NCBI RefSeq assembly: GCF_028607085.1
Contig: NZ_CP117411.1
Coordinates: 124,001-188,000, forward strand
Direction: 5' to 3'
DNA length: 64,000 nucleotides
DNA from: Sphingomonas naphthae
Lineage (GTDB): Bacteria > Pseudomonadota > Alphaproteobacteria > Sphingomonadales > Sphingomonadaceae
Shown here: positions 3,468-41,312 of the stretch, one piece after another
Numbering within the stretch: position 1 is the first letter of the stretch
Layout: each line of letters starts with the position of its first letter
Translations under genes and position numbers: made by a program
The notes under the pieces: generated by a model
Databases searched by the model: none
What the model was told of the DNA's origin: nothing
Seen by the model: only the letters and a program-made list of their open reading frames with translations

Positions 3468-3479
3468 TCGCCTCCCCTG

Positions 3480-3518
3480 GGCGCCGGCCTTCCGCACCCG
3501 GCCGGCGCCTCTTTTTTT
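3480..3518 (+). terminator. Intrinsic terminator after TonB receptor
   Basis: A perfect 10-bp GC stem (GGCGCCGGCC at 3480-3489, GGCCGGCGCC at 3500-3509) with a 10-nt loop is followed at once by a run of seven T (3512-3518). It separates the receptor from the downstream aldehyde dehydrogenase. Confidence 0.9.
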
Positions 3519-3582
3519 GGATTTCAGGCCGATGACTGGCTTATCGGGAGCCCGGCCTCTCCTGCCACAAGGATGGAACAGC

Positions 3583-4986
3583 ATGGCCTACAAGCTCCTG
3601 ATCGACGGTAAGCTGGTCGATGGCGCCGCGACGCTCGACGTGATCGATCCGGCGACCGGCGCGGTGTTCGAGACGTGCGCGCGCGCCGATGCGGCGCAGC
3701 TCGACGAGGCGGTCGCGGCGGCGAAGCGGGCGTTCCCCGCCTGGTCGGCGCTGCCCCATGCCGAGCGGCGCGTCTATCTGGAGCGGCTGGCCGATGCGAT
3801 GGAGGCGCGCTTCGCCGAATTCTGCACGCTCCTCACCCGCGAACAGGGCAAGCCGACCCCGCAGGCGCAGTTCGAGATCGGCGGCACCGTGGCGGCGCTG
3901 CGCTATTTCGCCGCGCAGGATCTGCCGATCGAACTGATCCGCGAAACCGAGCAGGAGAAGATCGTCGAGCAGCGCATCCCGCTCGGCGTGATCGCCGCCA
4001 TCACGCCCTGGAATTTCCCGATCATCCTACTGATGCTGAAGCTCGCCCCCGCGCTCGCGATCGGCAACACGATGGTCGCCAAGCCCGCCCCCTCGACCCC
4101 GCTCACCACCGCTCTGTTCGGCGAGCTGGCGGCGGATATCCTGCCACCGGGCGTGCTGAACGTGATCGTCGACGCCAATGATCTGGGCGCGCGCCTCACC
4201 GATCATCCCGATGTCGCCAAGGTCAGCTTCACCGGATCGACCGCCACCGGCAAGCGGGTAATGGCGAGCGCGGCCGGCACGCTCAAGCGCCTCACCCTCG
4301 AACTGGGCGGCAACGATGCCGCGATCATCCTCGACGATGCCGATGTGAAGACCGTCGCGCCCAAGGTGTTCGACGCGGCGATGATCAACGCCGGCCAGGT
4401 GTGCCTCGCGGTCAAGCGCGTCTACGCCCCCCGGCCGATGATGGACGCGCTGTGCGCCGAATTCGCGCGGCTGGGCGCCGAAGCGGTGGTCGACGACGGG
4501 CTCAACCAGGGCGCCACGATCGGCCCGGTGCAGAACAAGGCGCAATATGACAAGGTGCTGGCGCTGATCGACGAGGCCAAGTCCGAGGGCCGGGTCGTCG
4601 TCGGCGGCGAGCCGCTGGGCCGCGACGGCTATTTCATCGCCCCTACCGTCATCCGCGACCTGCCCGACGATGCCCGCCTCGTGCGCGAGGAGCAGTTCGG
4701 CCCGGTCTTCCCGGTGCTGGCCTACGACGATCTCGACGAGGTGATCGCCCGCGCCAACGACAGCGATTTCGGCCTCGGCGGCACGATCTGGACCAGCGAT
4801 CCCGATCGCGGAATGGCGGTCGCGCTGCGCATCCATTCGGGCACGGTGTGGGTGAACAAGCACCTCGACATGCCGTTCGACATCCCCTTCGGCGGGGCCA
4901 AGCAATCCGGCCTCGGCCGCGAGCAGGGTGTGGACGGCATGAAGGAATTCACCCAGGCCAAGATCATCAATATCGCCAAGCGGTGA
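3583..4986 (+). CDS. NAD(P)-dependent aldehyde dehydrogenase
   Basis: 467 residues from the ATG at 3583, which has AAGGA upstream and begins MAYKLLIDGKLVDG, the usual family start; an in-frame ATG at 3517 lies in the terminator T-run and is unlikely. Family motifs: substrate/cofactor Asn region ITPWNFP, nucleotide-binding FTGSTATG, catalytic Glu in LELGG and catalytic Cys in NAGQVC. It would oxidise an aldehyde to a carboxylate in the cytoplasm. The terminator just upstream implies its own promoter. In context it would oxidise the aldehyde formed from the imported compound (inference). Confidence 0.92.
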   Translation: MAYKLLIDGKLVDGAATLDVIDPATGAVFETCARADAAQLDEAVAAAKRAFPAWSALPHAERRVYLERLADAMEARFAEFCTLLTREQGKPTPQAQFEIGGTVAALRYFAAQDLPIELIRETEQEKIVEQRIPLGVIAAITPWNFPIILLMLKLAPALAIGNTMVAKPAPSTPLTTALFGELAADILPPGVLNVIVDANDLGARLTDHPDVAKVSFTGSTATGKRVMASAAGTLKRLTLELGGNDAAIILDDADVKTVAPKVFDAAMINAGQVCLAVKRVYAPRPMMDALCAEFARLGAEAVVDDGLNQGATIGPVQNKAQYDKVLALIDEAKSEGRVVVGGEPLGRDGYFIAPTVIRDLPDDARLVREEQFGPVFPVLAYDDLDEVIARANDSDFGLGGTIWTSDPDRGMAVALRIHSGTVWVNKHLDMPFDIPFGGAKQSGLGREQGVDGMKEFTQAKIINIAKR

Positions 4987-23504: not shown

Positions 23505-24022
23505 CATCCAGCGGTCGCGTGATCCCCTAACTCCATTCCAATACCCCGGATTGCCTACGGCCGCCTGACGAAGGCGGCCGTAGCAATGTTTGCGCTTGGG
23601 GATGCCCGGGCCGCCGCCGCTGAAATAGGCGGCCATCCCTCTCCCATCGTGCGGACGGCATGGCCGGCCGCATCCGATGCGCCCGACAGGACGGTCGTCG
23701 GGCGTGAATGCCCTGCGTGCTTTTCGGCGCGGCGATAGCGGCTCGCACAGACACTACGTCCAGAGCCTGCCGGCGAGGCGACGGTGGGGTCATCCGCTGT
23801 CCATCGCCGTACAGGCCGCCGGATGGGGCGCATGCGGGAATGCCATATGGCGGCATTCTTGGTGACCCCAAGGGCATTCGAGCCCATGCTTTCGCCGTGC
23901 AATTCGCACCCCGCAAACACCTTTCTGCGGGCGAGAATCCGAATGGGAGCAATCGTGCAACCACCTGTTTCAGGGCTGCCGCCACCTACACGGACCGCGC
24001 GCCTTTTAAGGGCATCCTCTCC
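23505..24022. other. Intergenic region without a recognisable gene
   Basis: 518 bp between the Rieske gene and the convergent MFS gene. A perfect 11-bp hairpin (CTACGGCCGCC at 23555-23565, GGCGGCCGTAG at 23573-23583) lies 50 bp after the Rieske stop and could end its transcript, though no T-run follows. CCATTCCAATACCCCGGAT (23533-23551) weakly resembles the shared motif core. Open frames exist on both strands but none shows a ribosome site or a known protein pattern; the stretch may be a decayed gene. Confidence 0.55.
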
Positions 24023-30413: not shown

Positions 30414-30429
30414 TGGTGACCCCAACGGG
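30414..30429. repeat. attL, 16-bp core of tRNA-Glu 3' end
   Basis: TGGTGACCCCAACGGG, identical to 41237-41252. The flanking bases differ on both sides (G versus A after the core), which defines the core at 16 bp. TGG at its left is the CCA end of the tRNA in reverse complement. Confidence 0.88.
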
Positions 30430-30547
30430 GCGGCAGCAAAGCCGCTTTTTCAATCGCTTAGATTGGCAACCCCTGATGATCGGCCTTGTTCAAGCAAGGC
30501 ACGATCGAAACGTGCTGGCTAACCTTTTTAGCTGAACGGCGGCCGCC

Positions 30548-30907
30548 GTGCGCAGCAGCTTTGACCGGATCGAGGCCGCGATGGCCCGTCGATACGCAGT
30601 CCGCGCGGACGGTTGGCCCGTTGGGGCGGAGGTTGTCGCAAGAGTCTGGAGTTGCCCCGTCCCCACCGTGCAGCTGGTGGATAATGGTAAGGTGGGGCAG
30701 CAGCGCTTTACCATCTGGACGCTCTTGCCGTTCCGCCGGGCGCACCTTGCGTTCCCGCCGCTTCACGCGCCGACCCTATATCGGGCGCGGCAAATCGCTT
30801 TTCGCCGGCTTCGCGACGCTGGTGGCGAAACGTTACAGCTCGGCCGATCCTGCGGATTGGAGTTGGCCCGTGCGGGCAAGTACATCGGCCTGGAGTGCTG
30901 CCGGTGA
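30548..30907 (+). CDS. Hypothetical protein, first element gene
   Basis: 119 residues from GTG 30548. The support is its position: the stop overlaps the primase start as GTGA, a coupling used by several genes in this element. The sequence (FDRIEAAMARRYAVRADGWP, LARAGKYIGLECC) shows no domain I recognise. Other frames are open here as well, so it may not be real. Confidence 0.4.
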   Translation: MRSSFDRIEAAMARRYAVRADGWPVGAEVVARVWSCPVPTVQLVDNGKVGQQRFTIWTLLPFRRAHLAFPPLHAPTLYRARQIAFRRLRDAGGETLQLGRSCGLELARAGKYIGLECCR

Positions 30908-33468
30908 GCGATTCTAACGCACTCTTGGCAGCTGCGCTCGAATATGCCGCACGTGGCTGGCCGGTTTTTCCATGTTCGCCACGCGACAAGAAGCCCCTGA
31001 TCCCGCGTGACAAGGATGACGCTGGCAAGCCGATCAAGGGAACCGGCGGGCTGCACAAAGCCAGCGTAGACGCTGACACAGTTCGCACCTGGTGGGAGCG
31101 TTGGCCAAAGGCGATGATCGGCCTTCGCATGGGCGTGAACGGCTTGTTTGTGCTCGACTTCGATCCGCGCACCGATGAGGCGACGGGCGAGGAATGGACG
31201 CTCGATCGTCTGAAGGGCGAACTCGAAGAGCAGATGCGGTGCCCGCTCCCGGCCTCGCTGGCGGTGCGAACGCCGAGCGGCGGCGTCCACGTCTACCTTG
31301 CCCAGCCCGCCGGTGCGGCGATCCGCAACCGTGACAATCTACCCGAGCATGTCGACGTGCGCGGAGAAGGCGGCTACGTGATCGCGCCGCCAAGCGTCAT
31401 GGCCGATGGGCTCCGCTATCGCTGGTTGCGCGATGATGCCGCCGCGCCGATCGTCGCCGCCCCGCCCGCGCTGGCCGCGATCCTGCAAGCCGGCAAGGGT
31501 GCAAAAAAAGACGTTGGCAAGCTTGTCGGGGAGGGCGTGGGGGCGGGCGACGATGGCCTGCGACGCTATGGCCTCGCCGCGCTGGATGCGGAGTGCCGCT
31601 CGATCCAGAGCGCGCCCTCCGGTAAGCGGCAGAACGCGCTGAATGCGGGTGCCTATGCCGTCGCGCAGTTGGCGGCTGGCGGCGCGCTCAGCGAGACGAT
31701 GGCGCGGCGCGCGATCCTGGCGGCAGCGCTGGCGAACCCCGGCAACGACGACGAAGGCGCGATCGTTGCCACCATCGACAGCGGCTGGGCCGCCGGATTT
31801 GCCAAGCCGCGCGACCTGTCGGACGTGGGAACGCGGGCTGCGCATGCCCCGTCTCGTTCGTCGCGGCTGGCAACCGCGAATGACAACCCACACTTGCCGT
31901 CTTGCGACGAAGCCGAGGCGCTGCATCGCCGGCTGGCGATGCGGCCGATGACGGACTTGGGCAACGCCGAGCGCTTCGCAGAACGGTTCGGAAGGCGCAT
32001 CCGCTACGTCGATAAGATGGGCTGGATGGCCTATGACGGCCGGCGCTTCATCTTGGACGGTGCCGAGGCGCTTATCGGCGGCTGGGTGCACGAGACGGTA
32101 CGCGCGATCCGCGAAGAGGCACGCGCAATGCGCGATAGCGGCCGGCGCGACCTTGGTATCGAGGGCGCGATCGACGACCTCGTGGAGACCAAGCGCGACG
32201 GCACGGAGGTGCTGCTGTCGGACAAGCTGGTGACCTGGGCAAAGGCTTCGGAGAGCGCCAACCGCCTGTCCTGCATCGCCGGCATCGCGCGCAATCTGTC
32301 GCGCCATGGGCTGACGGTTCAGCCGGAGCAGCTGGATCGCAATCCTTTCCTCGTCAACATCCTGAACGGCACGCTGGAACTGGTGACGGACCCGCACGCG
32401 CCGCAACCATGGGCGGAACTGCGCTTGCGCCCGCACGATCCGGCGGACCTCATCACGCGCCTGGCGCCGGTCGAGTACGATCCCGATGCGGCCTGCCCGG
32501 TCTATGACCGCTTCCTTGCGCGGGTGCAGCCTGGGCAGGACATGCGGCGATTCCTGCACCAATGGGGCGGGCTGTCGCTGACGGGCGATGTGTCCGAACA
32601 GAAGCTGGCCTTCTTCCACGGCAAGGGCGCGAACGGCAAATCGACCTTGGTCGATACATGGGCGACGATCGCGGGCGACTATGCCGGCACGGTGCCGATC
32701 GAGACGTTCCTCGATCAAGGCCGGAAGCGGAAGGGGTCTGATGCGTCGCCTGATCTAGCCGCGCTCGTCGGCGTGCGGATGCTGCGCACGTCGGAGCCGG
32801 AAAAGGGCTCCAAACTGGCGGAAGCCCTTATCAAGCTGGCGACGGGTGGCGAGCCCATGCCGGTGCGCCGGCTGAACCGCGATCCGTTCGATCTGCATCC
32901 CGCGTTCAAGATGACCGTTTCGGGCAATCATCGCCCGTCGATCAGCGGTGTGGATGACGGCATCTGGCGCCGCGTCATGCTGGTGCCTTGGGACGTGCAG
33001 ATCCCCGACACCGAGAAGGATCGGCAGCTTGTCGCTAAGATGCAGCGCGAGGCGCCCGGCATCCTCAACCGCCTTTTGGCCGGCCTGATCGACTGGCGGC
33101 TGAACGGCCTTGTGGAGCCCGCCAGCGTGCGCGGTGCGACAGCTGACTATCGAGAGCAAAGTGACCCGCTGGGCCGCTTCCTTGCCGCCTGCACACGCAG
33201 CGAGACAGGGCAGCGAGTGCAATCGTCCAAGCTCTACGCACTCTTCATAGCGTGGGCCAAGGCCACCGGCGAACGCGAGTGGTCACAGGTTGGCTTCAGC
33301 AAGGCGCTAACCGATCGCGGCTTCAAGCGGATCGAGAGCCACGGGATGCGATGGCTTGACCTGATCGCCACGCGCACACCCGAGGAATTGGAAGCCGACG
33401 ATTGGGCCGACCCCGTTGCGTCGTCGCCCCCGCGCCCCTGGGAGGATGACGATGGCTGGCCACTGTAG
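30904..33468 (+). CDS. P4-type primase-polymerase / SF3 helicase
   Basis: 854 residues from GTG 30904, which has GGAG 8 nt upstream; GTG 30895 is an alternative. Residues about 5-200 form a PrimPol domain (AARGWPVFPC, catalytic LDFDPR near 85-87, GGVHVYLAQP, GEGGYVIAPPS). The C-terminal half is a D5/SF3 helicase with Walker A GKGANGKST near 572, the later RTSEPEKGSKL stretch, and MTVSGNHRPSISGVDDGIWR. This is the domain plan of phage/plasmid P4-type alpha proteins, which recognise origin iterons, unwind and prime. The iteron array right after the gene is the matching origin candidate. Confidence 0.9.
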   Translation: MSDSNALLAAALEYAARGWPVFPCSPRDKKPLIPRDKDDAGKPIKGTGGLHKASVDADTVRTWWERWPKAMIGLRMGVNGLFVLDFDPRTDEATGEEWTLDRLKGELEEQMRCPLPASLAVRTPSGGVHVYLAQPAGAAIRNRDNLPEHVDVRGEGGYVIAPPSVMADGLRYRWLRDDAAAPIVAAPPALAAILQAGKGAKKDVGKLVGEGVGAGDDGLRRYGLAALDAECRSIQSAPSGKRQNALNAGAYAVAQLAAGGALSETMARRAILAAALANPGNDDEGAIVATIDSGWAAGFAKPRDLSDVGTRAAHAPSRSSRLATANDNPHLPSCDEAEALHRRLAMRPMTDLGNAERFAERFGRRIRYVDKMGWMAYDGRRFILDGAEALIGGWVHETVRAIREEARAMRDSGRRDLGIEGAIDDLVETKRDGTEVLLSDKLVTWAKASESANRLSCIAGIARNLSRHGLTVQPEQLDRNPFLVNILNGTLELVTDPHAPQPWAELRLRPHDPADLITRLAPVEYDPDAACPVYDRFLARVQPGQDMRRFLHQWGGLSLTGDVSEQKLAFFHGKGANGKSTLVDTWATIAGDYAGTVPIETFLDQGRKRKGSDASPDLAALVGVRMLRTSEPEKGSKLAEALIKLATGGEPMPVRRLNRDPFDLHPAFKMTVSGNHRPSISGVDDGIWRRVMLVPWDVQIPDTEKDRQLVAKMQREAPGILNRLLAGLIDWRLNGLVEPASVRGATADYREQSDPLGRFLAACTRSETGQRVQSSKLYALFIAWAKATGEREWSQVGFSKALTDRGFKRIESHGMRWLDLIATRTPEELEADDWADPVASSPPRPWEDDDGWPL

Positions 33469-33469
33469 T

Positions 33470-33749
33470 GCAAGGGTTCATGCAAGGGTTGAGCAAGGGT
33501 TTGAGCAAGGCTCGAACCCCGGTTTTCTGCGGCTTTGCAAGGGTTGCAAGGCCCATGCGCATGCCTGTCTCACGTACATGTGCGCGCAGGCGCGCCTGCG
33601 CATGTGCGACAGGTTGCACATAACCTTTGCAACCCTTGCAACCCTTGCTTTGAAATCTCTTCATTGGCGGATTTCCGCCATTCCTTTCCCGTTGTGTCCG
33701 CAAGGGTTTCTCATAGCCCGCAAGGGTTGAGCCGAAATGCGCAAGGCTT
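33470..33749. repeat. Iteron array, probable replication origin of the element
   Basis: The 9-mer GCAAGGGTT occurs exactly six times on the plus strand (33470, 33482, 33493, 33537, 33700, 33720) and twice on the minus strand (33631-33639, 33640-33648), with near matches at 33505, 33546, 33622-33630 (minus) and 33741. An 18-bp perfect palindrome (GCGCAGGCGCGCCTGCGC, 33584-33601) and a second one (TGGCGGATTTCCGCCA, 33665-33680) lie inside. Placement between the primase stop and the next gene parallels P4-type origins. No protein-coding pattern fits the stretch. Confidence 0.8.
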
Positions 33750-33763
33750 TGGAGGATCGATAG

Positions 33764-33985
33764 ATGAACACCTATTCCCCGCTCTGGGACACGCTGCTGC
33801 AAACCGCTGTCTGCCACACGGAGCATCCGGGCGAAGCAGTGTCCGCATTGATGAGAGCGGCGGCTGAAATCCTCCAGCGGTCATTCGGGCAAGACGTTGC
33901 GATCGAGCTTTTGAGCGAGATCGTGGCGGAAGCGACAGATCATTGGCGCTCGATCCAGCCTCCGCCCGCGTCGGTGCGCCATTAA
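33764..33985 (+). CDS. Small hypothetical protein
   Basis: 73 residues, with a strong ribosome site (GGAGG at 33751-33755, 8 nt before ATG 33764). The sequence is mostly helical and acidic (LMRAAAEILQRSFGQDVAIE) with no recognised domain. It follows the iteron array, so it may take part in copy or replication control; this is a guess from position. The 142-bp stretch after it shows no gene. Confidence 0.6.
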   Translation: MNTYSPLWDTLLQTAVCHTEHPGEAVSALMRAAAEILQRSFGQDVAIELLSEIVAEATDHWRSIQPPPASVRH

Positions 33986-34127
33986 GGCCCGCGGGCCGCC
34001 CCCTTCGGGTCCTTCCGGGGCGGGCGCGGGCAATGCGGTTGGGCAGAGCGCATGGTTTCAACATTCAAGCCCGATCTGTCTTTTTGAACTTCATGAACTG
34101 TTTGAACCATTTAGCGTGCCGGGAGCG

Positions 34128-34400
34128 ATGATCGTGTCCACCGACAAGATTTATGACTTCGACGAGAAATCGGCGGCGCGGATCATGGGCGTGGTGCCCC
34201 GGACGCTTCGCAACTGGCGGAAGGCGGGCAAGATCGGCTTCTATCGAACGCCTGGCGGCCGCGTCCGCTATTCGATCGATCAGCTGATCGAGGTGCGGAC
34301 CGGAGGGCGCGTCGATGCCGCGTTTGACCCCACGTTTCCACCTTTTGCCGCACAAGGGTCATCGACCGCCGACGCCCCCGTGGCGATCATTCCGGCATGA
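34128..34400 (+). CDS. MerR/AlpA-like helix-turn-helix protein
   Basis: 90 residues from ATG 34128; GTG 34134 has the better-spaced GGGAG (8 nt) and may be the true start. Residues about 12-50 form an HTH of the MerR/excisionase type (EKSAARIMGVVPRTLRNWRK, wing PGGRVRYSIDQLIE). AlpA-like proteins activate late or excision genes in satellites and prophages. The stop overlaps the capsid-fusion start as ATGA, which ties a regulator directly to the structural gene. Confidence 0.75.
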   Translation: MIVSTDKIYDFDEKSAARIMGVVPRTLRNWRKAGKIGFYRTPGGRVRYSIDQLIEVRTGGRVDAAFDPTFPPFAAQGSSTADAPVAIIPA

Positions 34401-36583
34401 GCCACAACCGCACCCGCACTTTGGCGCCGACGCCGGCCCCCCGACGCCCCGATGGCCAGCTTATCGCCGACGTGCTGGATCGCATCACGGCCCGGCGGAC
34501 GGCGGGGGAGTCGCAATCCGCCTCGCCGCACGCGGAGCGCCGGGTTGCAGCGCCGCAAGGGCAGCGCACCCTCTCGCTGCAGCCGGCCAGCTGGAACGCC
34601 GAAGCGCGCACGATCGACGTGGTGTGGACGACAGGCGCGCGCGGCGTCCGTTTCGACTTCGATACGCTGGCGCTGGTGGATGAGGAGCTGGCGACAGGCA
34701 CCGCCAATGTCCGGCTCGATCGCCTCAATCGCGGCGCGCCCGTCCTCAATACGCACCAGAAAGACGACCTGGGCGCGCAGATCGGAACCGTCGTGCCGGG
34801 CAGCGCCCGCATGGTGGGCGGACAGGGCATCGCGACTCTGCAACTTTCGGCGCGCGAGGATGTGGCGCCGATCGTCGCGGATATTGCCGCCGGCATCATC
34901 CGCAACCTGTCGGTCGGCTACACCGTCCATGTTTTCGAGGTGAACCGGAAGGCCAGCCCGCGACCGCTGTACCGCGCGACGGACTGGGAGCCGACCGAAA
35001 TCAGCTTCGTCCCCGTGCCTTTCGATGCCGGTGCGCAGGTTCGCGACCTGCCGAGCCATCCCGGCGCGACCTGCCTTGTCCGAACGATCCCCTTTCAGGA
35101 GCCCAAAGCTATGTCTACGTCGTGGATGTCCCGTTTCACCCGTGCCTTCATCCCCGCCGCGCCCCCGGCCGCCGCCCCGGCACCGACGGCGCCCGCCGAG
35201 CCGTCCTACGAGCGGCAAGCCTCGATTGCCTGGCTACGAGACTACACCCGTATGGCGAGCGAGACGATGACGCTGCCGCCCGAACTGGCGGCCGATCTCG
35301 CGCTGGAGATGGCGGAGCGGTCGATGACCGAGGGGCAGGCGCGCGATGCCGTCATGCAGATTCTCGGCGAGCGGCAGCGCAATGCCACGGGCACAATCTC
35401 GAGCGTCAACGGCTCGCCGGTCGCAAACGCGCTGATCTATGGCGAGCGCAGCTATGACAATCCCGACTTTCAGGCTGCGGCGATCGGCGATGCCCTGTTC
35501 GCGCGGATGAGCGGCAGCGCGCCCACCGAGCAGGCGCGCAAGTTTATGAATATGAGCATGGTGCAGATCGCGGGCGAGCTGATGATCCGGCAGGGCGTGC
35601 GCGACGTGAACCGCATGGGGCCGAACGAAATCCTCAATAGCGCCGCGTGGAACTCGGGCGGCACGCGCAGCTTCGCCCCCGATCACGGCTATGCGCGCGG
35701 GCTGGGCGGGATGCACACCACGTCCGATTTCCCGCAGCTGCTGATGGGCGCAGGCGAGCGGTTCCTGTTGACGGTCTTCGAGGCCGCCGCCTCGCCCCTC
35801 AAGCAGATCAGCCGGCAGCGTAGCGCACGGGATTTCCGCGCGATCAGCGGGCTCCAGCTGTCGGGTTTCGGCACGCTGCTGGAGGTGCCGGATGCCGGCG
35901 AGATCAAGCACGGCACGTTCAAGGAGCGGAAGGAAACCTATCGCCTCAAGACGTTCGCCAAGCAATTCGCGCTGTCGCGGCAGGCGATCATCAATGACGA
36001 TCTGAACGTCTTCAGCGATCCCATCACGATCATGGGGCGCGCCTCGGCCGAGACCGAGGCGACATTGCTGGCGGACCTTATCAACAGCAATCCGGCGCTG
36101 AGCGACGGCATCCCGCTGTTCGATGCCCAGCATGGCAATTTGGCGGCGACGGGGGCGGCGCCGACAAGCATCGGCCCGCTTGACGCCGGTCGCCTAGCGA
36201 TGCGGCGGCAGAAGGATTTGGACGGCAAGACGCCGCTCGCGCCGGCGCCCAAATTCATCGTGTCGAGTGTCGAGAACGAAACGCGGATCGAGCAGCTCCT
36301 GACCATGCTCCAGGCCACGACGACGGATGCGGCCAACCCGTTCGCCGGGAAGCTGACACCGCTGGTCGATCCGCGCCTCGACCCGCTGCCCTGGTATCTT
36401 TTCGGCGCGCCGGGCAGCGCGCCGATGCTGGAACATGCCTACCTGAACGACCAGGCCGGCCCCAAGGTCGAGATGCAGGACGGCTGGGACGTGCTGGGCA
36501 CGAAGTTCCGCGTCTACATGGATTTCGGCGCGGGCGTGGTGGATTGGCGCGGCGGCTACAAGAACCCCGGCGCGGCCGGCTGA
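34397..36583 (+). CDS. Prohead protease-major capsid protein fusion
   Basis: 728 residues. Residues about 50-230 match a HK97-type prohead protease (S78/U35): catalytic His in VLNTHQKDD (near 119), catalytic Ser in RNLSVGYTV (near 170), then EPTEISFVPVPFDAGAQVR. A Pro/Ala-rich linker (about 250-275) leads to a Mu gpT-like major head protein (about 280-725; GERFLLTVFEAAASPLK, IPLFDAQHGNLA, WYLFGAPGSAP, GWDVLGTKFRVYMDFG). In most phages these are two genes or the protease cleaves itself free. It implies the element makes its own shell. No portal, terminase or scaffold gene lies beside it. Confidence 0.88.
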   Translation: MSHNRTRTLAPTPAPRRPDGQLIADVLDRITARRTAGESQSASPHAERRVAAPQGQRTLSLQPASWNAEARTIDVVWTTGARGVRFDFDTLALVDEELATGTANVRLDRLNRGAPVLNTHQKDDLGAQIGTVVPGSARMVGGQGIATLQLSAREDVAPIVADIAAGIIRNLSVGYTVHVFEVNRKASPRPLYRATDWEPTEISFVPVPFDAGAQVRDLPSHPGATCLVRTIPFQEPKAMSTSWMSRFTRAFIPAAPPAAAPAPTAPAEPSYERQASIAWLRDYTRMASETMTLPPELAADLALEMAERSMTEGQARDAVMQILGERQRNATGTISSVNGSPVANALIYGERSYDNPDFQAAAIGDALFARMSGSAPTEQARKFMNMSMVQIAGELMIRQGVRDVNRMGPNEILNSAAWNSGGTRSFAPDHGYARGLGGMHTTSDFPQLLMGAGERFLLTVFEAAASPLKQISRQRSARDFRAISGLQLSGFGTLLEVPDAGEIKHGTFKERKETYRLKTFAKQFALSRQAIINDDLNVFSDPITIMGRASAETEATLLADLINSNPALSDGIPLFDAQHGNLAATGAAPTSIGPLDAGRLAMRRQKDLDGKTPLAPAPKFIVSSVENETRIEQLLTMLQATTTDAANPFAGKLTPLVDPRLDPLPWYLFGAPGSAPMLEHAYLNDQAGPKVEMQDGWDVLGTKFRVYMDFGAGVVDWRGGYKNPGAAG

Positions 36584-36733
36584 CGGGAAGCGAAGCGCGG
36601 ATAGCACGATCGCGGGGACCGCGCTGGGCGAGCATTTCACCCTCCTCATCCTCGTATCGCAGGCCCCCGGCGGGCCTGATCCAAGCCAGCGGGCCAAGGC
36701 AGCTCGCTGGCAGCCGCTTCAAAGGAGGAAAGC

Positions 36734-36955
36734 ATGTCCAAGACTTTGCGAACCGCCGCCATCGTGGTGGGCGTCGTTGCGCTTGGGGTGGCGACCTACG
36801 GTGCCGCACTCGGGCCGGCTGCCGCCGCCGCTACCGGAGCGGCAAGCGGTTTGGCTGGCCTGGGCGTCGGCGCGAGCGTTGCCGCAGTCGGCACCGGCCT
36901 CGGGGCAATCAGCGGCAATCGCTGCCTCACCGGCAAACTGCGGCGCCGCAGGTGA
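36734..36955 (+). CDS. Small hydrophobic Gly/Ala-rich protein
   Basis: 73 residues with a very strong ribosome site (AAAGGAGG, ATG 36734). It has one membrane-like segment (residues about 7-26) and a second Ala/Gly-rich hydrophobic stretch (about 27-58), ending in a basic tail (KLRRRR). Such N-termini occur in phage tail-region proteins of alphaproteobacteria, and a holin-like role is also possible; neither is established. The stop overlaps the next start (GTGA). Confidence 0.55.
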   Translation: MSKTLRTAAIVVGVVALGVATYGAALGPAAAAATGAASGLAGLGVGASVAAVGTGLGAISGNRCLTGKLRRRR

Positions 36956-37659
36956 CGGCGATCAATGTCGTTGTCCAGCGCAAGGCGCGGGCTGCTTTCA
37001 TCATATCCGACACGGCCGTCACCGCCCCGGATGGCACGCTGGTGCGATCGGTCGGGAAGGTCATCTTCAGCGTCAAGCACGGTTTTCCTTGGGCAATGGG
37101 CGTAACGGGAAACGTCGCGCCTGAGGTGTTGCTGAAGGCGATCGGTGAAGAAAAGACGGCCACGCTCAAGCAGCTGGAGAAGCGGCTGCCCTTAGCCATG
37201 CGCCGCGCGGTTGCAGAGACTTGCGATCTTCGTGGCGTAACGCCGGCAGAGATATTCTGTCAGGTGAAGGGCGCCTATTGGGATTTCTCGCGCAAGCGGC
37301 CGATGGGCATGATGATGCAGGCGAATGCCGGCGATATGGTGGGCGCTGGCGCGATCGAGGCGTACACGTGGTATGATCTGCCTTGGGCGATGGGCACCCA
37401 TGAAGCCGCCGAAGTACTGCTGGGCCGCGCCGTCGATCTTGAAGAACCTGATAGTTTCGACGCGGAACATGACGGCTATGCGTTGATTAAGGCGCAGCGC
37501 CAGCGCGGAGGGATCGACATCACACCGGGCATGGAGGCGGGCCACTGTCGGATCGGCGGCGAGGTGCATTTGACCGAAGTGCGCAAAACGGGTGTTCAGG
37601 TGTACGTGATTGGAGATTTTGTAGATCAGATCGGCGAAAGAATTGTTGCGTCCGCCTAA
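36952..37659 (+). CDS. Unknown protein, possible Ntn-hydrolase-like fold
   Basis: 235 residues from GTG 36952, coupled to the previous gene by a 4-bp overlap. The first 90 residues (TAINVVVQRKARAAFIISDT, GKVIFSVKHGFPWAMGVTGN) have the strand-turn rhythm of proteasome-like/Ntn proteins (xxSDTAVT, then kv..i..g..a.tG). That similarity is judged by eye only, and no catalytic N-terminal residue is evident. The rest shows no known domain. Continuing the frame upstream gives TAAPQ, which would join smoothly to the preceding protein after its LTGK, so an ancestral single gene split by a frameshift is possible. Confidence 0.6.
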   Translation: MTAINVVVQRKARAAFIISDTAVTAPDGTLVRSVGKVIFSVKHGFPWAMGVTGNVAPEVLLKAIGEEKTATLKQLEKRLPLAMRRAVAETCDLRGVTPAEIFCQVKGAYWDFSRKRPMGMMMQANAGDMVGAGAIEAYTWYDLPWAMGTHEAAEVLLGRAVDLEEPDSFDAEHDGYALIKAQRQRGGIDITPGMEAGHCRIGGEVHLTEVRKTGVQVYVIGDFVDQIGERIVASA

Positions 37660-37692
37660 CCGTCAACCAAAATACAGAACACAATCCCCCGT

Positions 37693-37878
37693 TCATTCGC
37701 TATAAATGTATCTGCCATCTATCCAAAAATCGCTGTCTCCAGTTTCATTATTGTACAGATAGGTTCCAATAAGATTATGAGTGGATGATCCGTTCATATT
37801 GTAGAATATTGCGCCAGATAGATAACCGACGCAATTACCATTCTCATAACCATAAATATATCGATGGCCCGATCCCAT
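37693..37878 (-). CDS. 4-fold beta-flower-like repeat protein
   Basis: 61 residues from ATG 37878, with GGAG 7 nt upstream on the minus strand. About 16-residue units repeat (YIYGYENGNCVGYLSG, AIFYNMNGSSTHNLIG, YLYNNETGDSDFWIDG, RYIY), the pattern of the small 4-fold beta-flower proteins. It is much richer in A and T than its neighbours and runs against the structural genes, which suggests separately acquired cargo. Function unknown. Confidence 0.6.
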   Translation of the reverse strand: MGSGHRYIYGYENGNCVGYLSGAIFYNMNGSSTHNLIGTYLYNNETGDSDFWIDGRYIYSE

Positions 37879-37896
37879 CACCTATCTCCAGGAGGA

Positions 37897-38400
37897 TCAA
37901 CGTGCTGATACGATAGAATCGATTTCGCTTACCGCGAGCTTATAGTTTTTACCAAGACTTTCCCAAACCTTCAGCATCGCACGGTACGCAGCTAAGCTCG
38001 TGCCGCTGTGTGAATTGTCCGGGCGTTCTTCGAGTTCCTCATATCGCTTCTCAGTTCGGCGGACGAATTTAGCGAATCCATAATGTCCGCTAGAAGAGTT
38101 TCCGTCAAACCCCTCGAACTGGGCATATAACCCTGTCGGTTCGTGCTTGAGGCGCTGAGATGAGAACGTTATGGCTCGATACATACTCAAAATATCGAGA
38201 ACCTCCATACACACGACTGCACTTAAAGGATCTGGATCAATGGAGCGGTTCAGGTCCTGATATAATAGCTCATACCCATTCGATAGTATTTCCTGATTTT
38301 TCTCGTAAATATCTATCTCTTCTGGGTTGGTACCCTTCAAAATTTCGTACTGGTTCCAGAGGATCAAACGTTCGGTCTGCGACAGTTTCATGTCAGCCAC
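37897..38400 (-). CDS. YfbU-family protein
   Basis: 167 residues from GTG 38400; ATG 38391 is the alternative. It aligns by eye along its length with E. coli YfbU (SQTERLILWNQYEIL, NGYELLYQDLNR, EGFDGNSSSGHYGFAKFVRR, YRAMLKVWESLGKNY, SEIDSIV). The family's biochemical role is unsettled. The start overlaps the stop of the ribbon-helix-helix gene by 8 bp, so the two are co-translated, an arrangement like toxin-antitoxin pairs. Lower GC than the structural genes. Confidence 0.85.
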   Translation of the reverse strand: MADMKLSQTERLILWNQYEILKGTNPEEIDIYEKNQEILSNGYELLYQDLNRSIDPDPLSAVVCMEVLDILSMYRAITFSSQRLKHEPTGLYAQFEGFDGNSSSGHYGFAKFVRRTEKRYEELEERPDNSHSGTSLAAYRAMLKVWESLGKNYKLAVSEIDSIVSAR

Positions 38401-38578
38401 TTAGCTTCTCTCCCAAGATTATTCTGATTGCCTCCGGACGTGACAGCCCAGGCGACCGTTGCCCAATCCATGTGTCAAGCGCGGCGAGTTGAGCGGGCGG
38501 GAGCTTTACCATCACGCCAACAGAGCCGACAGGCGGCCGACCGCGACGTTTTCCGATATCCGCTATTGCATCGACCAT
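38393..38578 (-). CDS. Ribbon-helix-helix DNA-binding protein, antitoxin-like
   Basis: 61 residues. A basic arm (KRRGRPP) precedes a ribbon-helix-helix pattern: strand VGVMVKLPP, helix AQLAALDTWIGQ, helix SRPEAIRIILGEKL. Small RHH proteins of this kind are usually antitoxins or autorepressors. An inverted repeat brackets its start codon (38553-38594), suiting autoregulation. It is first in a two-gene unit with the YfbU-like gene. Confidence 0.8.
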   Translation of the reverse strand: MVDAIADIGKRRGRPPVGSVGVMVKLPPAQLAALDTWIGQRSPGLSRPEAIRIILGEKLSG

Positions 38579-38594
38579 GTTTAACGGATATCGG
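38553..38594. promoter_or_regulatory. Inverted repeat bracketing the RHH start
   Basis: CCGATATCCG (38553-38562) and its exact reverse complement CGGATATCGG (38585-38594) flank the RHH start codon at 38576-38578. Each arm contains the smaller palindrome GATATC. Placement suits binding by the RHH protein. Confidence 0.65.
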
Positions 38595-38668
38595 ATAGAG
38601 CGAGCCGGCGCAAGGATTAGGCCCCCCGCGCCAGCTCTAACCGCAACAGACCCTTAGGAGGTACTGTC

Positions 38669-39337
38669 ATGGCTACCGCTGCCCGTAGCATCGTCCCCGC
38701 GTGCATCGCACCCGGAAAAAACGCCGATAAGTCCACCGCGCCCAGCCGGCGCGGCTTCCTCGCGCTGGCCGCTGCCGTTCCCGCCGCAGGCGCAATGGCC
38801 GGTCTTCCCGCAACGGTTCGACCCTCGCCTTGGAACCGCGCCGTTGCCGCCCTTCAGGCGGCCAAGACCGCACGCGAAGCCTACGAGCGCGACGTGTTTC
38901 TGCCGATGGATCGAGAATATAATCGGCGGTCGGGCAAGCGTCCCAGCCTCGATTTCTCGGTTAAGGCGCTCAACGGGCATGTCGCAACCTATCACATGCG
39001 GCCGCACGAGCTTGACGATTGGGCCGATTGCGACATGTGGCGCCGCTATGCTGCGCCGATCCGAGAAGAATATCGGGCTTGGCAACGGCGGCACGACGCT
39101 GCCCTTCGCGACCTGAACTATGAAGCGATCCAGGTGCGTTATGACGACCTTAATGTGGTCGAGGCGGACGCCGAGGACGCGCTGATCGCCACGCCTGCGC
39201 CCGATGGCGCTGCACTCGCTGCAAAAGTCAGGCTGGTTCTGTCGCTGACGGCAGACTCTTCGTTTGACGACCGATGGCGGCAGGGCCTGTTGGCCGATTG
39301 CGAGAGTTTCGAGGAGGCTCGCTCTAAAAGCGCGTAA
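38669..39337 (+). CDS. Hypothetical protein with Tat-like N-terminus
   Basis: 222 residues with AGGAGG upstream of ATG 38669. A twin-arginine-like segment (SRRGFLALAAAVPAAGA, about residues 26-42) sits unusually far in. The remainder is helical and charged (AAKTAREAYERDVF, MWRRYAAPIREEYRAWQRRH) with no recognised domain. It is divergent from the RHH-YfbU unit and first of a run ending in the integrase. Confidence 0.65.
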   Translation: MATAARSIVPACIAPGKNADKSTAPSRRGFLALAAAVPAAGAMAGLPATVRPSPWNRAVAALQAAKTAREAYERDVFLPMDREYNRRSGKRPSLDFSVKALNGHVATYHMRPHELDDWADCDMWRRYAAPIREEYRAWQRRHDAALRDLNYEAIQVRYDDLNVVEADAEDALIATPAPDGAALAAKVRLVLSLTADSSFDDRWRQGLLADCESFEEARSKSA

Positions 39338-39420
39338 GTTTTATGTTCTTCACGAACAGGCAATTGACGACGGCGGAAAATCGCTTCATGTTCACAATGA
39401 ACACACAGAGAGATTTGGAC

Positions 39421-39879
39421 ATGAAGCTTGGCAGCCTCCTGCATTTGGTCGGCCTCAACCGCAACTCCTACAACACGTTGAATCGGCGAAATTCCTTCCG
39501 CTTTATGGACCGGGATTTGCTCGATGAGCGATCCTATGATCGGTACTCGATGACCCACGCCGTTGCCGTTGGGTGTGTCGTCGAGTTCATGGCAGCAGGC
39601 CTGTCGGGGCAACGGGCGGGCGCTGCTGTGGACAACCTTTTCCGCGTTATCGACGCCGCGACCCACACGCTCGCCCAAGGCAGCGCCGGAGATCATTGGT
39701 GGCTCACGATCACCAACTTTGCCGATGGCAGTTGGGGTTGGGCCAGCGGCAACGAGAATGCCGATACGTTCGGTCGCGGCCTTGTGTCCAATAAGGTGAG
39801 CATCAATGTCGTCGCGGTGTGGGAGGACATGGCAAAGCGTCTCGGCACGCCGATGGACCCGAGCAATGTCGAAAGCTGA
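39421..39879 (+). CDS. Putative HTH (MerR-like) regulator
   Basis: 152 residues from ATG 39421 (GAGAG 8 nt upstream); ATG 39343 would add 26 residues. The first 70 residues look like a MerR-type HTH (KLGSLLHLVGLNRNSYNTLN, then YSMTHAVAVGCVVEFMAAGL). The C-terminal part (WWLTITNFADGSWGWASGNE) is unassigned. A control role for integrase or excision would fit its place, but this is inference. Confidence 0.6.
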   Translation: MKLGSLLHLVGLNRNSYNTLNRRNSFRFMDRDLLDERSYDRYSMTHAVAVGCVVEFMAAGLSGQRAGAAVDNLFRVIDAATHTLAQGSAGDHWWLTITNFADGSWGWASGNENADTFGRGLVSNKVSINVVAVWEDMAKRLGTPMDPSNVES

Positions 39880-39924
39880 CGCATGGCCCCAGGTGACCGC
39901 CAGACCGGAAAGGTGTTTGGCGAT

Positions 39925-40104
39925 ATGAGCGGACGTAGCCGCTTCAAACAGGTTGACGCGACTCGCGCGCTCAAAGCTGCGCTCGATGCCGGCCTTCCGC
40001 CATCGGAGTGCATCATTGATGGCGACGGTGCGATTCGACTGATCTTTCGAGATGGCAGCGCCAGCCCACTTGCTAATCCGCTTGACCGACTGCTGCCCCG
40101 GTGA
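39925..40104 (+). CDS. Small conserved protein upstream of integrase
   Basis: 59 residues from ATG 39925 (MSGRSRFKQVDATRALKAAL); ATG 39883 would add 14 residues. A helical DATRALKAALDAG segment is followed by IDGDGAIRLIF. Similar small proteins often precede tyrosine integrases in alphaproteobacteria. The stop overlaps the integrase GTG by 4 bp (GTGA), so the two are coupled. Confidence 0.65.
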   Translation: MSGRSRFKQVDATRALKAALDAGLPPSECIIDGDGAIRLIFRDGSASPLANPLDRLLPR

Positions 40105-41225
40105 AGCGAAAGCGCCGCTATCCGAACGTATCGTCGTTCACCGATCGCCACGGCAAGTTGCGCTGGCGGTGGCGCAAGGCGGGTTTCGTCACCTATTATT
40201 TCCGCAGTCCGCCAGACACGGCGGGCTTCAAGGAAGAATTGGCAGCGTGCGAGGCGGGCGCGCCGATCCGTGCTGGCGGGGGGCGCTGCATCCCGCGATC
40301 GGTCTCGGACCTGGTGGCACGCTATTATGCCTCCGCTAACTTCAATCGCGGGGGGCTAGACGATCAGCACCGGCGTCGATTGCTGATTGAGAGCTTCCGC
40401 ACTCCCTTGGCCAACGACCTCGTTGCGAACTTCCGGTGGGATCATATCGAGGCGATTTTGGCCGATCGTGCAAAGAAGGCGATCGATGGTCGGGGTCGTG
40501 TTGTCGGAGGACCCGTGGCGGCGCTCAATCTACGCAAGCAGCTTCGCCGGCTGTTTGCCTATGCGAAGCGGCTGGGCTGGATAACAGACAATCCGGTGGA
40601 CGATGCCGAGCGTATCGCTGCCCCGAAAACGGGCGGCTATTACGCATGGTCCGAAGACGACATCGCCGCGTATCAGGCGCGACACCCGCTCGGGACGGGA
40701 GCCCGGCTTGCGCTGGAGATTATGCTTTGGACCGGCCAACGCCGCAGTGATGCCCGGCAGCTTGGTCCCGAGCATCTGAAAAGCGGGCAGATCAATTACC
40801 GCCAGGGCAAGACTGGCACAGATTTATGGTTGCCAGCTGTGCCACAGCTCATGGAGGCAATCCGCGCAATGCAACGCGTCGGGCTCAATACCTTTCTGGT
40901 GACCGACCACGGCAAGCCATTCAGCCGCGCCGGCTTCGGCAACAAGATGCGCGAGTGGTGTGACGAAGCAGGGCTTCCCCAATGCACGTCGCACGGCCTC
41001 CGCAAAGCCGTGGCGCGCCGCCTTGCTGAAAGCGATGCAAGCCAACAGTCGATCAAGGCTGTGGGTGGCTGGAAAGGCGATGCCGAGGTTACGATCTACA
41101 CCGCCAGCGCCGATCAAAAACGCCTCGCGCGGACGGCCATTGATCGACTTTCCGACGCTGATTTGGCTAACCGCGACATCAAGTTAGCCAAATCATTCAA
41201 CCAAAAGATTGAAAAGAAAGACTAA
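40101..41225 (+). CDS. Tyrosine-type integrase
   Basis: 374 residues from GTG 40101. An N-terminal arm/core-binding region (to about 185) is followed by a catalytic domain with Arg in TGQRRSDARQL (near 213), HxxR in SHGLRKAVARRL (near 297), GGWKGDAE (near 322) and the nucleophile Tyr in TIYTAS (near 332). The five-residue active site looks complete, so the element may still be mobile. It ends 11 bp before the tRNA-Glu gene, as expected for an integrase using that site. Confidence 0.93.
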   Translation: MKRKRRYPNVSSFTDRHGKLRWRWRKAGFVTYYFRSPPDTAGFKEELAACEAGAPIRAGGGRCIPRSVSDLVARYYASANFNRGGLDDQHRRRLLIESFRTPLANDLVANFRWDHIEAILADRAKKAIDGRGRVVGGPVAALNLRKQLRRLFAYAKRLGWITDNPVDDAERIAAPKTGGYYAWSEDDIAAYQARHPLGTGARLALEIMLWTGQRRSDARQLGPEHLKSGQINYRQGKTGTDLWLPAVPQLMEAIRAMQRVGLNTFLVTDHGKPFSRAGFGNKMREWCDEAGLPQCTSHGLRKAVARRLAESDASQQSIKAVGGWKGDAEVTIYTASADQKRLARTAIDRLSDADLANRDIKLAKSFNQKIEKKD

Positions 41226-41236
41226 ATCCATGACCA

Positions 41237-41252
41237 TGGTGACCCCAACGGG
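41237..41252. repeat. attR core within tRNA-Glu 3' end
   Basis: TGGTGACCCCAACGGG equals the left core at 30414-30429. It covers the CCA end, the acceptor 3' strand and part of the T arm of tRNA-Glu, so insertion leaves the tRNA intact. Confidence 0.88.
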
Positions 41253-41312
41253 ACTCGAACCCGTGTTTTCGCCGTGAAAGGGCGACGTCCTAGACCGCTA
41301 GACGATGGGGCC
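41237..41312 (-). tRNA. tRNA-Glu (anticodon TTC)
   Basis: 76 nt including an encoded CCA. Acceptor GGCCCCA pairs with TGGGGTC (one G-U). The anticodon arm is CGCC-CTTTCAC-GGCG, giving TTC, and the T arm is ACGGG-TTCGAGT-CCCGT. It is the integration site of the adjacent element. Confidence 0.95.

Follow-up and report, generated by a model that had tools for sequence, protein, structure and literature searches.

A probable PICI-like phage satellite with a protease-capsid fusion gene in the tRNA-Glu of a sphingomonad-family genome

The window analyzed here is the whole 64-kb stretch of Sphingomonas naphthae DNA, and the element under study spans its positions 30414-41252 (10.8 kb), bounded by a 16-bp direct repeat. 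The repeat, TGGTGACCCCAACGGG, was present at 30414 and at 41237 with 16/16 identity, and its right copy formed the 3' end of an intact tRNA-Glu(ttc) gene on the minus strand, as the first-pass annotation had described; in 200 first-order random sequences generated as a control from the window's dinucleotides, no direct match to the tRNA-Glu exceeded 14 bp, a length reached once. The integrase gene ended 11 bp from the tRNA. The order of the features from the left was orf119, primase, iterons, orf73, HTH_17 regulator, capsid fusion, orfN and orfC, followed in the right arm by a reverse copG-like/yfbU pair, the TAT-signal protein gene, orf178, orf73b and int (Table 1). The main genes were on the plus strand, the YfbU and CopG-like genes on the minus strand, and the GC content was 62.8% for the element, 66.4% for the window and 47% for yfbU.

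Table 1. Features of the element and its attachment site, in window positions.
Feature	Position	Strand	Evidence and remarks
Left att core TGGTGACCCCAACGGG	30414-30429		16/16 identity to 41237-41252
orf119	30548-30907	+	Overlaps primase start; GC3 0.75; weak match to a PHROG of unknown function, E 0.0034
P4-family primase-polymerase/helicase	30895-33468	+	phrog_1156, 534 bits (residues 8-823); Prim-Pol, D5_N, TIGR01613
Iteron array, 6 direct and 2 inverted GCAAGGGTT	33470-33728		Motif counts
orf73	33764-33985	+	43% over 44 aa to a similar gene in the L199 satellite
HTH_17/MerR-type small regulator	34116-34400	+	PF12728, 33.6 bits, cut-off 27; 4-bp overlap with capsid start
Prohead protease/major capsid fusion, 728 aa	34397-36583	+	NF045541, 655 bits over 66-726, cut-off 525; phrog_4523, 578 bits
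orfN, small hydrophobic protein	36734-36955	+	30-34% to orfC neighbors in L274, L275, L278 and to L162
orfC, 235 aa	36952-37659	+	Profile matches in 8 genomes including its own; relative in contig L199
YfbU-domain protein, low-GC cargo	37897-38400	-	PF03887, 131.9 bits; 47% GC
CopG-like small protein (name by eye)	38393-38578	-	Overlaps yfbU; 49% and 44% to L283 and L277 genes
Palindrome over CopG-like gene start	38552-38595		14-nt arms, 93% complementary
TAT-signal protein	38669-39337	+	TIGR01409, 18.0 bits, cut-off 16.7
orf178	39343-39879	+	No family match
orf73b, small gene paired with integrase	39883-40104	+	41% to pre-integrase gene of L162
Tyrosine integrase	40101-41225	+	PF00589 Phage_integrase, 70.2 bits, cut-off 27.1
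tRNA-Glu(ttc), attachment gene; right att core 41237-41252	41237-41312	-	Intact tRNA

In other genomes, recJ adjoined the region matching the tRNA-Glu in 26 relative loci (L125-L150, of 29 returned), and a match to the window integrase was found at one of these 26, each covered with 1.5 kb of flank only. At the level of the genus, the comparison covered a single genome, that of the element itself. Prophages may use the tRNA-Glu site as well, because a 36-kb contig (L171; integrase 49% identical) had the tRNA-Glu core behind its integrase with one mismatch. Other islands, with 47-bp repeats, were observed at the same tRNA-Glu/recJ site in two sphingomonad-family genomes (L160, 7620-15306; L161, 7476-14420). 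Elsewhere in the window, a degenerate copy of the 3' part of tRNA-Glu (43 nt, 84%) lay at 23860-23902 and is perhaps an older attachment site; the 6.5 kb between this fragment and the element held TonB-receptor-like and transporter-like genes, both named by eye.

The tyrosine integrase that had been placed beside the tRNA-Glu was upheld as a predicted member of the family by its Phage_integrase match. A sister integrase (68% identity) was that of a 10,848-bp contig (L162) on which Rep, terminase, HTH, capsid, protease and portal-type genes also occurred, and integrases 55-61% identical were found on seven viral contigs of 34-46 kb. The P4-type primase was recovered by the Prim-Pol, D5_N and TIGR01613 (P4 family) matches, and six of the 20 loci fetched for its relatives carried terminase and portal according to our own BLAST set. 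Since relatives of the two proteins occur in terminase/portal loci and on 34-46-kb viral contigs, neither the primase nor the integrase is satellite-specific. The iterons also stood, with eight copies of GCAAGGGTT in the array, the first starting one base after the primase stop codon, and one more elsewhere across the 64 kb, against at most five counts per 300-bp window for any 9-mer outside the array. An AT fraction of 0.48-0.50 was obtained in the 100-bp windows from 33600 and 33650, and the array is a probable replication origin, as judged from its sequence.

Only part of the earlier description of the regulator as AlpA-like could be retained: the HTH_17 match was above cut-off and phrog_66, an excisionase/regulator family, was matched at E 1.9e-6, but the profile scans gave no AlpA-family match. 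PF12728 is among the AlpA profiles used in PMC10803314. The protein was 46% identical over 54 aa to the product of the same-position gene in L199, and it also weakly matched the small-terminase family phrog_57 (E 0.0054). A mad1 match to it (E 6.7e-7), returned by PADLOC for the ten ORFs searched, was taken as a shared HTH fold.

The capsid gene proposed by the first-pass annotation proved to be a full-length prohead protease/major capsid fusion, in which H120, S172 and E201 were invariant across 12 aligned sequences. NF045541 was matched above cut-off in 5/199 genomes of the family and 13/385 of the class, and the second such match in the element's own genome was that of a resident prophage, whose capsid was 33% identical to that of the element. 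Terminase and portal matches accompanied the capsid in 15 of the 18 loci fetched from the class search, the rest being a capsid piece and two short contigs. The viral contigs were scanned with the twelve-capsid alignment and 80 loci scoring at least 597 were kept; terminase and portal were detected by BLAST in 60 of these, and 17 of the other 20 were contigs shorter than 10 kb. Scans with the capsid as a single query protein gave no relative in either the genome or the viral collections. A medium-confidence structural model of the fusion (mean pLDDT 69) gave HK97-fold matches, with encapsulins among the best. Such matches, together with the location of orfN and orfC directly after the capsid gene, would fit a domesticated shell that serves as an encapsulin-like compartment and takes up the orfC or orfN product as cargo; this is very improbable, as phage, P4, SaPI1 and cf-PICI capsids matched as well, the prohead protease is fused to the capsid, the integrase, primase, iterons and att sites are those of a mobile element, and orfC was present where no capsid gene was recognized (L276, L282).

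The orfN and orfC genes overlap in a GTGA at 36952-36955; this overlap, and the same two-gene arrangement in L275, where the orfN stop and the orfC start overlap too, ruled out a single frame-shifted gene. The likeness of orfN across elements was weak and partly a matter of hydrophobic composition, and its reading as a tail-tip remnant was unsupported, the best PHROG being an endolysin profile (E 0.059). For orfC, no significant Pfam, PHROG or PDB family was found; an Ntn-hydrolase/proteasome-like assignment was dropped at E 0.28 in a profile search of solved structures, and a two-sequence AlphaFold model was too poor for use (mean pLDDT 38.9). No match was obtained in 50,697 phage records with either the window's or the L199 copy as query, and single-protein scans of the genome and viral collections returned nothing or the source contig only. 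Profiles of two and seven sequences detected orfC in 6/397 family and 3/396 order genomes, respectively, its own included each time, making eight genomes for both searches. Elsewhere, in seven genomes and one viral contig, the neighbors of orfC were mostly Rep, integrase or tRNA genes, with differing head genes.

Among the remaining cargo, the CopG-like gene matched the phrog_4738 repressor only at E 0.045, and the TAT protein gave a PDC-M02A match (E 0.0063) when PADLOC was run on ten ORFs. The palindrome, a possible operator judging by its sequence, sits between the CopG-like gene and the plus-strand genes that run up to int; that the two constitute a lysogeny switch is a guess.

Ten ORFs were scanned with PHROG, Pfam and NCBIfam and four more with PHROG, and no large terminase, portal or tail gene was detected, which agrees with the earlier statement that packaging and tail genes are lacking, apart from the weak phrog_57 match. 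In a six-frame search of the genome, the profiles for the lambda-type terminase, PF05876, and for the portal, PF05136, had one match above cut-off each, at 297.5-300.7 kb; this gpA-type terminase and this PF05136 portal, the sole ones of their families above cut-off genome-wide, are both in the resident prophage, and for these two families the element gave no match. When 44 phage structural proteins were compared with the DNA of the element, a 28-residue match (E 0.033) and a 48-residue match (E 0.045) were all that appeared, and so no convincing remnant of a structural gene was detected. The first-pass annotation had regarded recognizable terminase or portal remnants as the sign of a decayed prophage; profile search recognized none, and its view of a satellite rather than a prophage is supported.

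The phylogeny of the capsids was based on 50 rows hand-picked from 114 after a first FastTree, the tested clade being also chosen afterwards. The capsid of the element fell among those of small satellite-like elements, in a group of 15 rows (support 83/88) and, within it, a subgroup of 13 (93/75), supports that we consider moderate, and forcing it into the clade of the resident-prophage capsid was rejected (p-AU 0.00106). FastTree, run on 114 of 117 capsids, placed the L199 satellite next to it, a placement that the 50-row tree did not reproduce. The satellite-like contigs were labeled tail-free by BLAST against the tail proteins of a few phages, so that divergent tails may be missed, and several of these contigs are incomplete; genes of unannotated loci were called with our own GC-frame caller, and the names of the integrases of L275 and the resident prophage, the NlpC-like genes, the terminase-like and resolvase genes of L282 and the TAT gene of L283 were given by eye.

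The gene order was paralleled in L199, a 13.8-kb viral contig (1-13763), where orf73, HTH, a ClpP-type capsid fusion and orfC follow each other as in the element, with NlpC-like, antirepressor and integrase genes besides. NlpC-like genes are often found among the tail genes of phages. The L199 satellite adjoins the start of a second capsid fusion gene, and its left end holds a terminase fragment 79.5% identical to that of the resident prophage. It resembles the helper-embedded PICIs described for Enterobacteriaceae in PMC10111431, although the left terminase fragment is unlike a simple insertion.

These comparisons bear on whether deletions took the terminase, portal and tails of a prophage and left its integrase, primase and capsid. 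Close relatives of the primase and integrase do lie in prophage-type loci, and a Sphingomonas plasmid carries a capsid-bearing island (L048) that looks decayed in this way, with no annotated portal or terminase and a capsid that groups with prophage capsids. In the element, however, the primase, capsid and integrase match their families nearly full length, the genes are tightly packed, the 44 structural proteins revealed no convincing remnant, the capsid clusters with those of small elements, a place in the clade of the resident prophage being rejected, and the orf73-HTH-capsid-orfC order recurs in L199. A decayed prophage is thus unlikely, and on sequence grounds a worn prophage appears less likely than a satellite.

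Three further contigs of 11-12 kb among the 80 viral loci (L189, L182 and L193) carried between them integrase, primase/Rep, terminase, HTH, portal, capsid fusion and DUF2190 genes, with no recognized tail genes. Att repeats were found in comparable elements within genomes, namely L112 (17 bp at tRNA-Phe, the terminase split into two ORFs), L113 (49 bp at tRNA-Gly, a small terminase present too) and L111 (20 bp at tRNA-Arg, a transposase gene inside); by their gene content, these three and the 11-12-kb contigs are cf-PICI-like. An 11.4-kb satellite-like contig at a tRNA-Glu ctc (L183, region 2680-4524) combined a capsid fusion with a tape-measure protein (phrog_34270, 1.6e-83), while terminase and portal gave no match there. 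A capsid fusion whose start is overlapped by an HTH gene was also observed in RHOAph (L044, NZ_OW485609.1), a 10,690-bp plasmid of Rhodovastum atsumiense with genes for a DUF3987 protein, a head-closure-like protein (phrog_82, 6.5e-5), ParA and a toxin-antitoxin pair, and no annotated portal or terminase; Rhodovastum plasmids are treated in PMC9938234. The HK97-type prohead protease gene of a 7.8-kb plasmid of Synechococcus elongatus PCC 7942 (L123, NZ_CP130604.1, 6063-7667) matched 84% of the RHOAph fusion at 24% identity.

In Escherichia coli, an island beside tRNA-Ile showed the arrangement int-HTH-primase-capsid fusion-DUF1441, with no terL or portal annotated; both this island and a 10,790-bp circle, the latter with an annotated tail assembly gene too, are ClpP-type capsid cases. 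A place covering at least 80% of the capsid gene of the tRNA-Ile island was present in 191/5426 E. coli genomes; the contexts examined were one chromosomal island case and one short-match case, which was an ordinary prophage. The capsid of the island grouped with an E. coli prophage capsid, and the state of a capsid without terminase and portal therefore seemingly arose more than once.

Other orfC-bearing loci differed in what surrounded the gene. L275 presented terminase, head protein, protease and portal matches and a neck protein, then orfN, orfC and tRNA-Thr, and L274 presented Rep, terminase, tape-measure-like and NlpC-like genes, orfN and orfC, with tRNA-Asn about 3 kb further; the tape-measure-like gene of L274 was the only hit of the tail-protein BLAST among these other loci. 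An integrase match, AlpA-like and primase genes and a weak small-terminase match accompanied orfC in L276, with tRNA-Lys and a 47-bp repeat 9.9 kb apart, and L282 had Rep, a terminase-like gene and orfC near tRNA-Arg. The incomplete contig L278 contained antirepressor-like, protease, capsid and NlpC-like genes, orfC and an integrase fragment, with no portal or terminase recognized. In L277 orfC was at the contig end. The arrangement of L283 (orfC, copG-like at 49%, a TAT-type gene, an integrase 36% identical to that of the element, tRNA-Gln) was like the right arm of the element, its left arm being cut by the contig.

A resident prophage was located around 275-323 kb of the same contig by terminase, gpW, portal, capsid fusion, DUF2190, tube and tape-measure matches, with a probable integrase (321.4-322.6 kb) adjoining tRNA-Asn. 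Its best short match to the element was of 27 bp, within the capsid gene of both, and no cos or pac common to the two was recognized. It is a natural candidate for a local helper. Weaker capsid or protease matches in phage-type loci were detected at 1568 and 2203 kb, and the resident prophage is therefore not the sole possible helper.

P4-like satellites are defined by the Psu, Sid and Delta genes, and P4 is not known to encode a capsid protein. The element shares with them a P4-family primase and a similar size but differs in the missing Psu and Sid families, and none of Psu, Sid and Delta was found among the Pfam, PHROG and NCBIfam matches of ten ORFs. The cf-PICIs carry their own full head and packaging set. 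Like them, the element has its own head protein and protease, and its capsid group is common to 11-13-kb alphaproteobacterial terminase/portal/capsid elements (L112, L113, L189) with no recognized tail genes; unlike them, it lacks the full head, having no large terminase or portal, and therefore cannot build a packaging-competent head alone. That cf-PICIs make their own capsids is stated in PMC10803314, among other sources. As with SaPIbov5 Ccm (PMC6092414), the satellite itself encodes a protein related to the capsid protein of the helper, although here the capsid is fused to a protease and any effect on capsid size is putative.

The closest agreement was with the Gram-negative PICIs. According to PMC10111431, the genes essential to a PICI are int, alpA and pri, ori lies downstream of pri, sizes range over 10-20 kb, and 21/29 reference PICIs carry a major capsid gene; PMC6092414 describes capsid homologues and iterons that flank an AT-rich stretch. 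The element resembles EcCICFT073, PmCI172 and the E. coli elements in its size, in an integrase with att repeats at a chromosomal site in a tRNA or gene end, in an HTH regulator of the alpA/merR type (PF12728 above cut-off, MerR-like, its role predicted), in a primase with an iteron ori right behind it, the two iteron sets flanking the AT-richer stretch, and in a capsid gene with no portal or large terminase, these and the tail genes (or remnants of them, as a prophage would have) being absent from the scans. It differs in its alphaproteobacterial host, in orfN/orfC, in the reversed genes at 37897-38578, in the position of the regulator between primase and capsid, and in a protease part of the HK97/S78 type instead of the ClpP-like one of the E. 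coli cases. For two other PICI traits, a mostly uniform gene direction and genes and an att site not shared with prophages, the picture was mixed: the YfbU and CopG-like genes run against the main genes, primase and integrase relatives lie in prophage-type loci, and L171 suggests a prophage at tRNA-Glu. The first-pass suggestion that this could be a new type of satellite carrying a capsid gene finds no support in that form, because the combination of int, regulator, primase/ori and capsid is the published content of Gram-negative PICIs (PMC10111431, PMC6092414) and has a close E. coli parallel at tRNA-Ile.

Taken on its sequence, the element is probably a seemingly intact PICI-like phage satellite that has integrated into the tRNA-Glu of its sphingomonad-family host. 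Repression would be relieved by a helper phage whose capsid is of the same class, the island would be excised by Int and then replicate from its iterons, steps suggested by the protein families named; its own protease-capsid protein would form or co-form a shell suited to an 11-kb genome, and the helper would supply portal, terminase, connectors and tail. Shell building is proposed because the capsid fusion is complete and because protease plus capsid without portal or terminase recurs. Going by the sequence, the capsid gene may make small shells or may mainly spoil helper assembly. In the latter variant of the satellite reading, whose likelihood overlaps with that of the whole, the capsid would be only a weapon of interference, entering the heads of the helper during assembly and spoiling them, while the satellite would travel in helper-sized heads. 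We rate this variant as possible if less likely than not. PICI capsid genes are reported in PMC10111431 as dispensable for PICI transfer, which speaks for it; the absence of an own portal or large terminase also favors it. A mere poison, however, would need no protease, and the protease part is retained with residues invariant in the 12 aligned sequences, as L278 likewise keeps protease and capsid on its incomplete contig.

The passages of PMC10803314 consulted assign PICIs to Firmicutes and Gammaproteobacteria and give a cf-PICI list that is without Alphaproteobacteria. Our literature search, which covered few subscription papers, found none that pairs PICIs with Sphingomonas or Alphaproteobacteria or phage satellites with Sphingomonadaceae, and the host clade and the orfN/orfC pair, not found in the papers searched, are what is new relative to them. 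We tentatively put forward, as somewhat short of an even case, that the elements marked by orfN/orfC form a distinct sphingomonad-family satellite lineage, located mostly at tRNA genes, whose members would each keep a different slice of the genes for head and packaging: the protease-capsid alone, the stretch from terminase to portal, the terminase with a tape measure, or just the terminase. If true, one lineage would show which helper parts satellites can do without. A satellite and its candidate helper on one chromosome would extend the PICI economy to another class, and relatives that swap head genes while retaining orfC lead to the questions of which head parts satellites must bring and what the role of orfC is.
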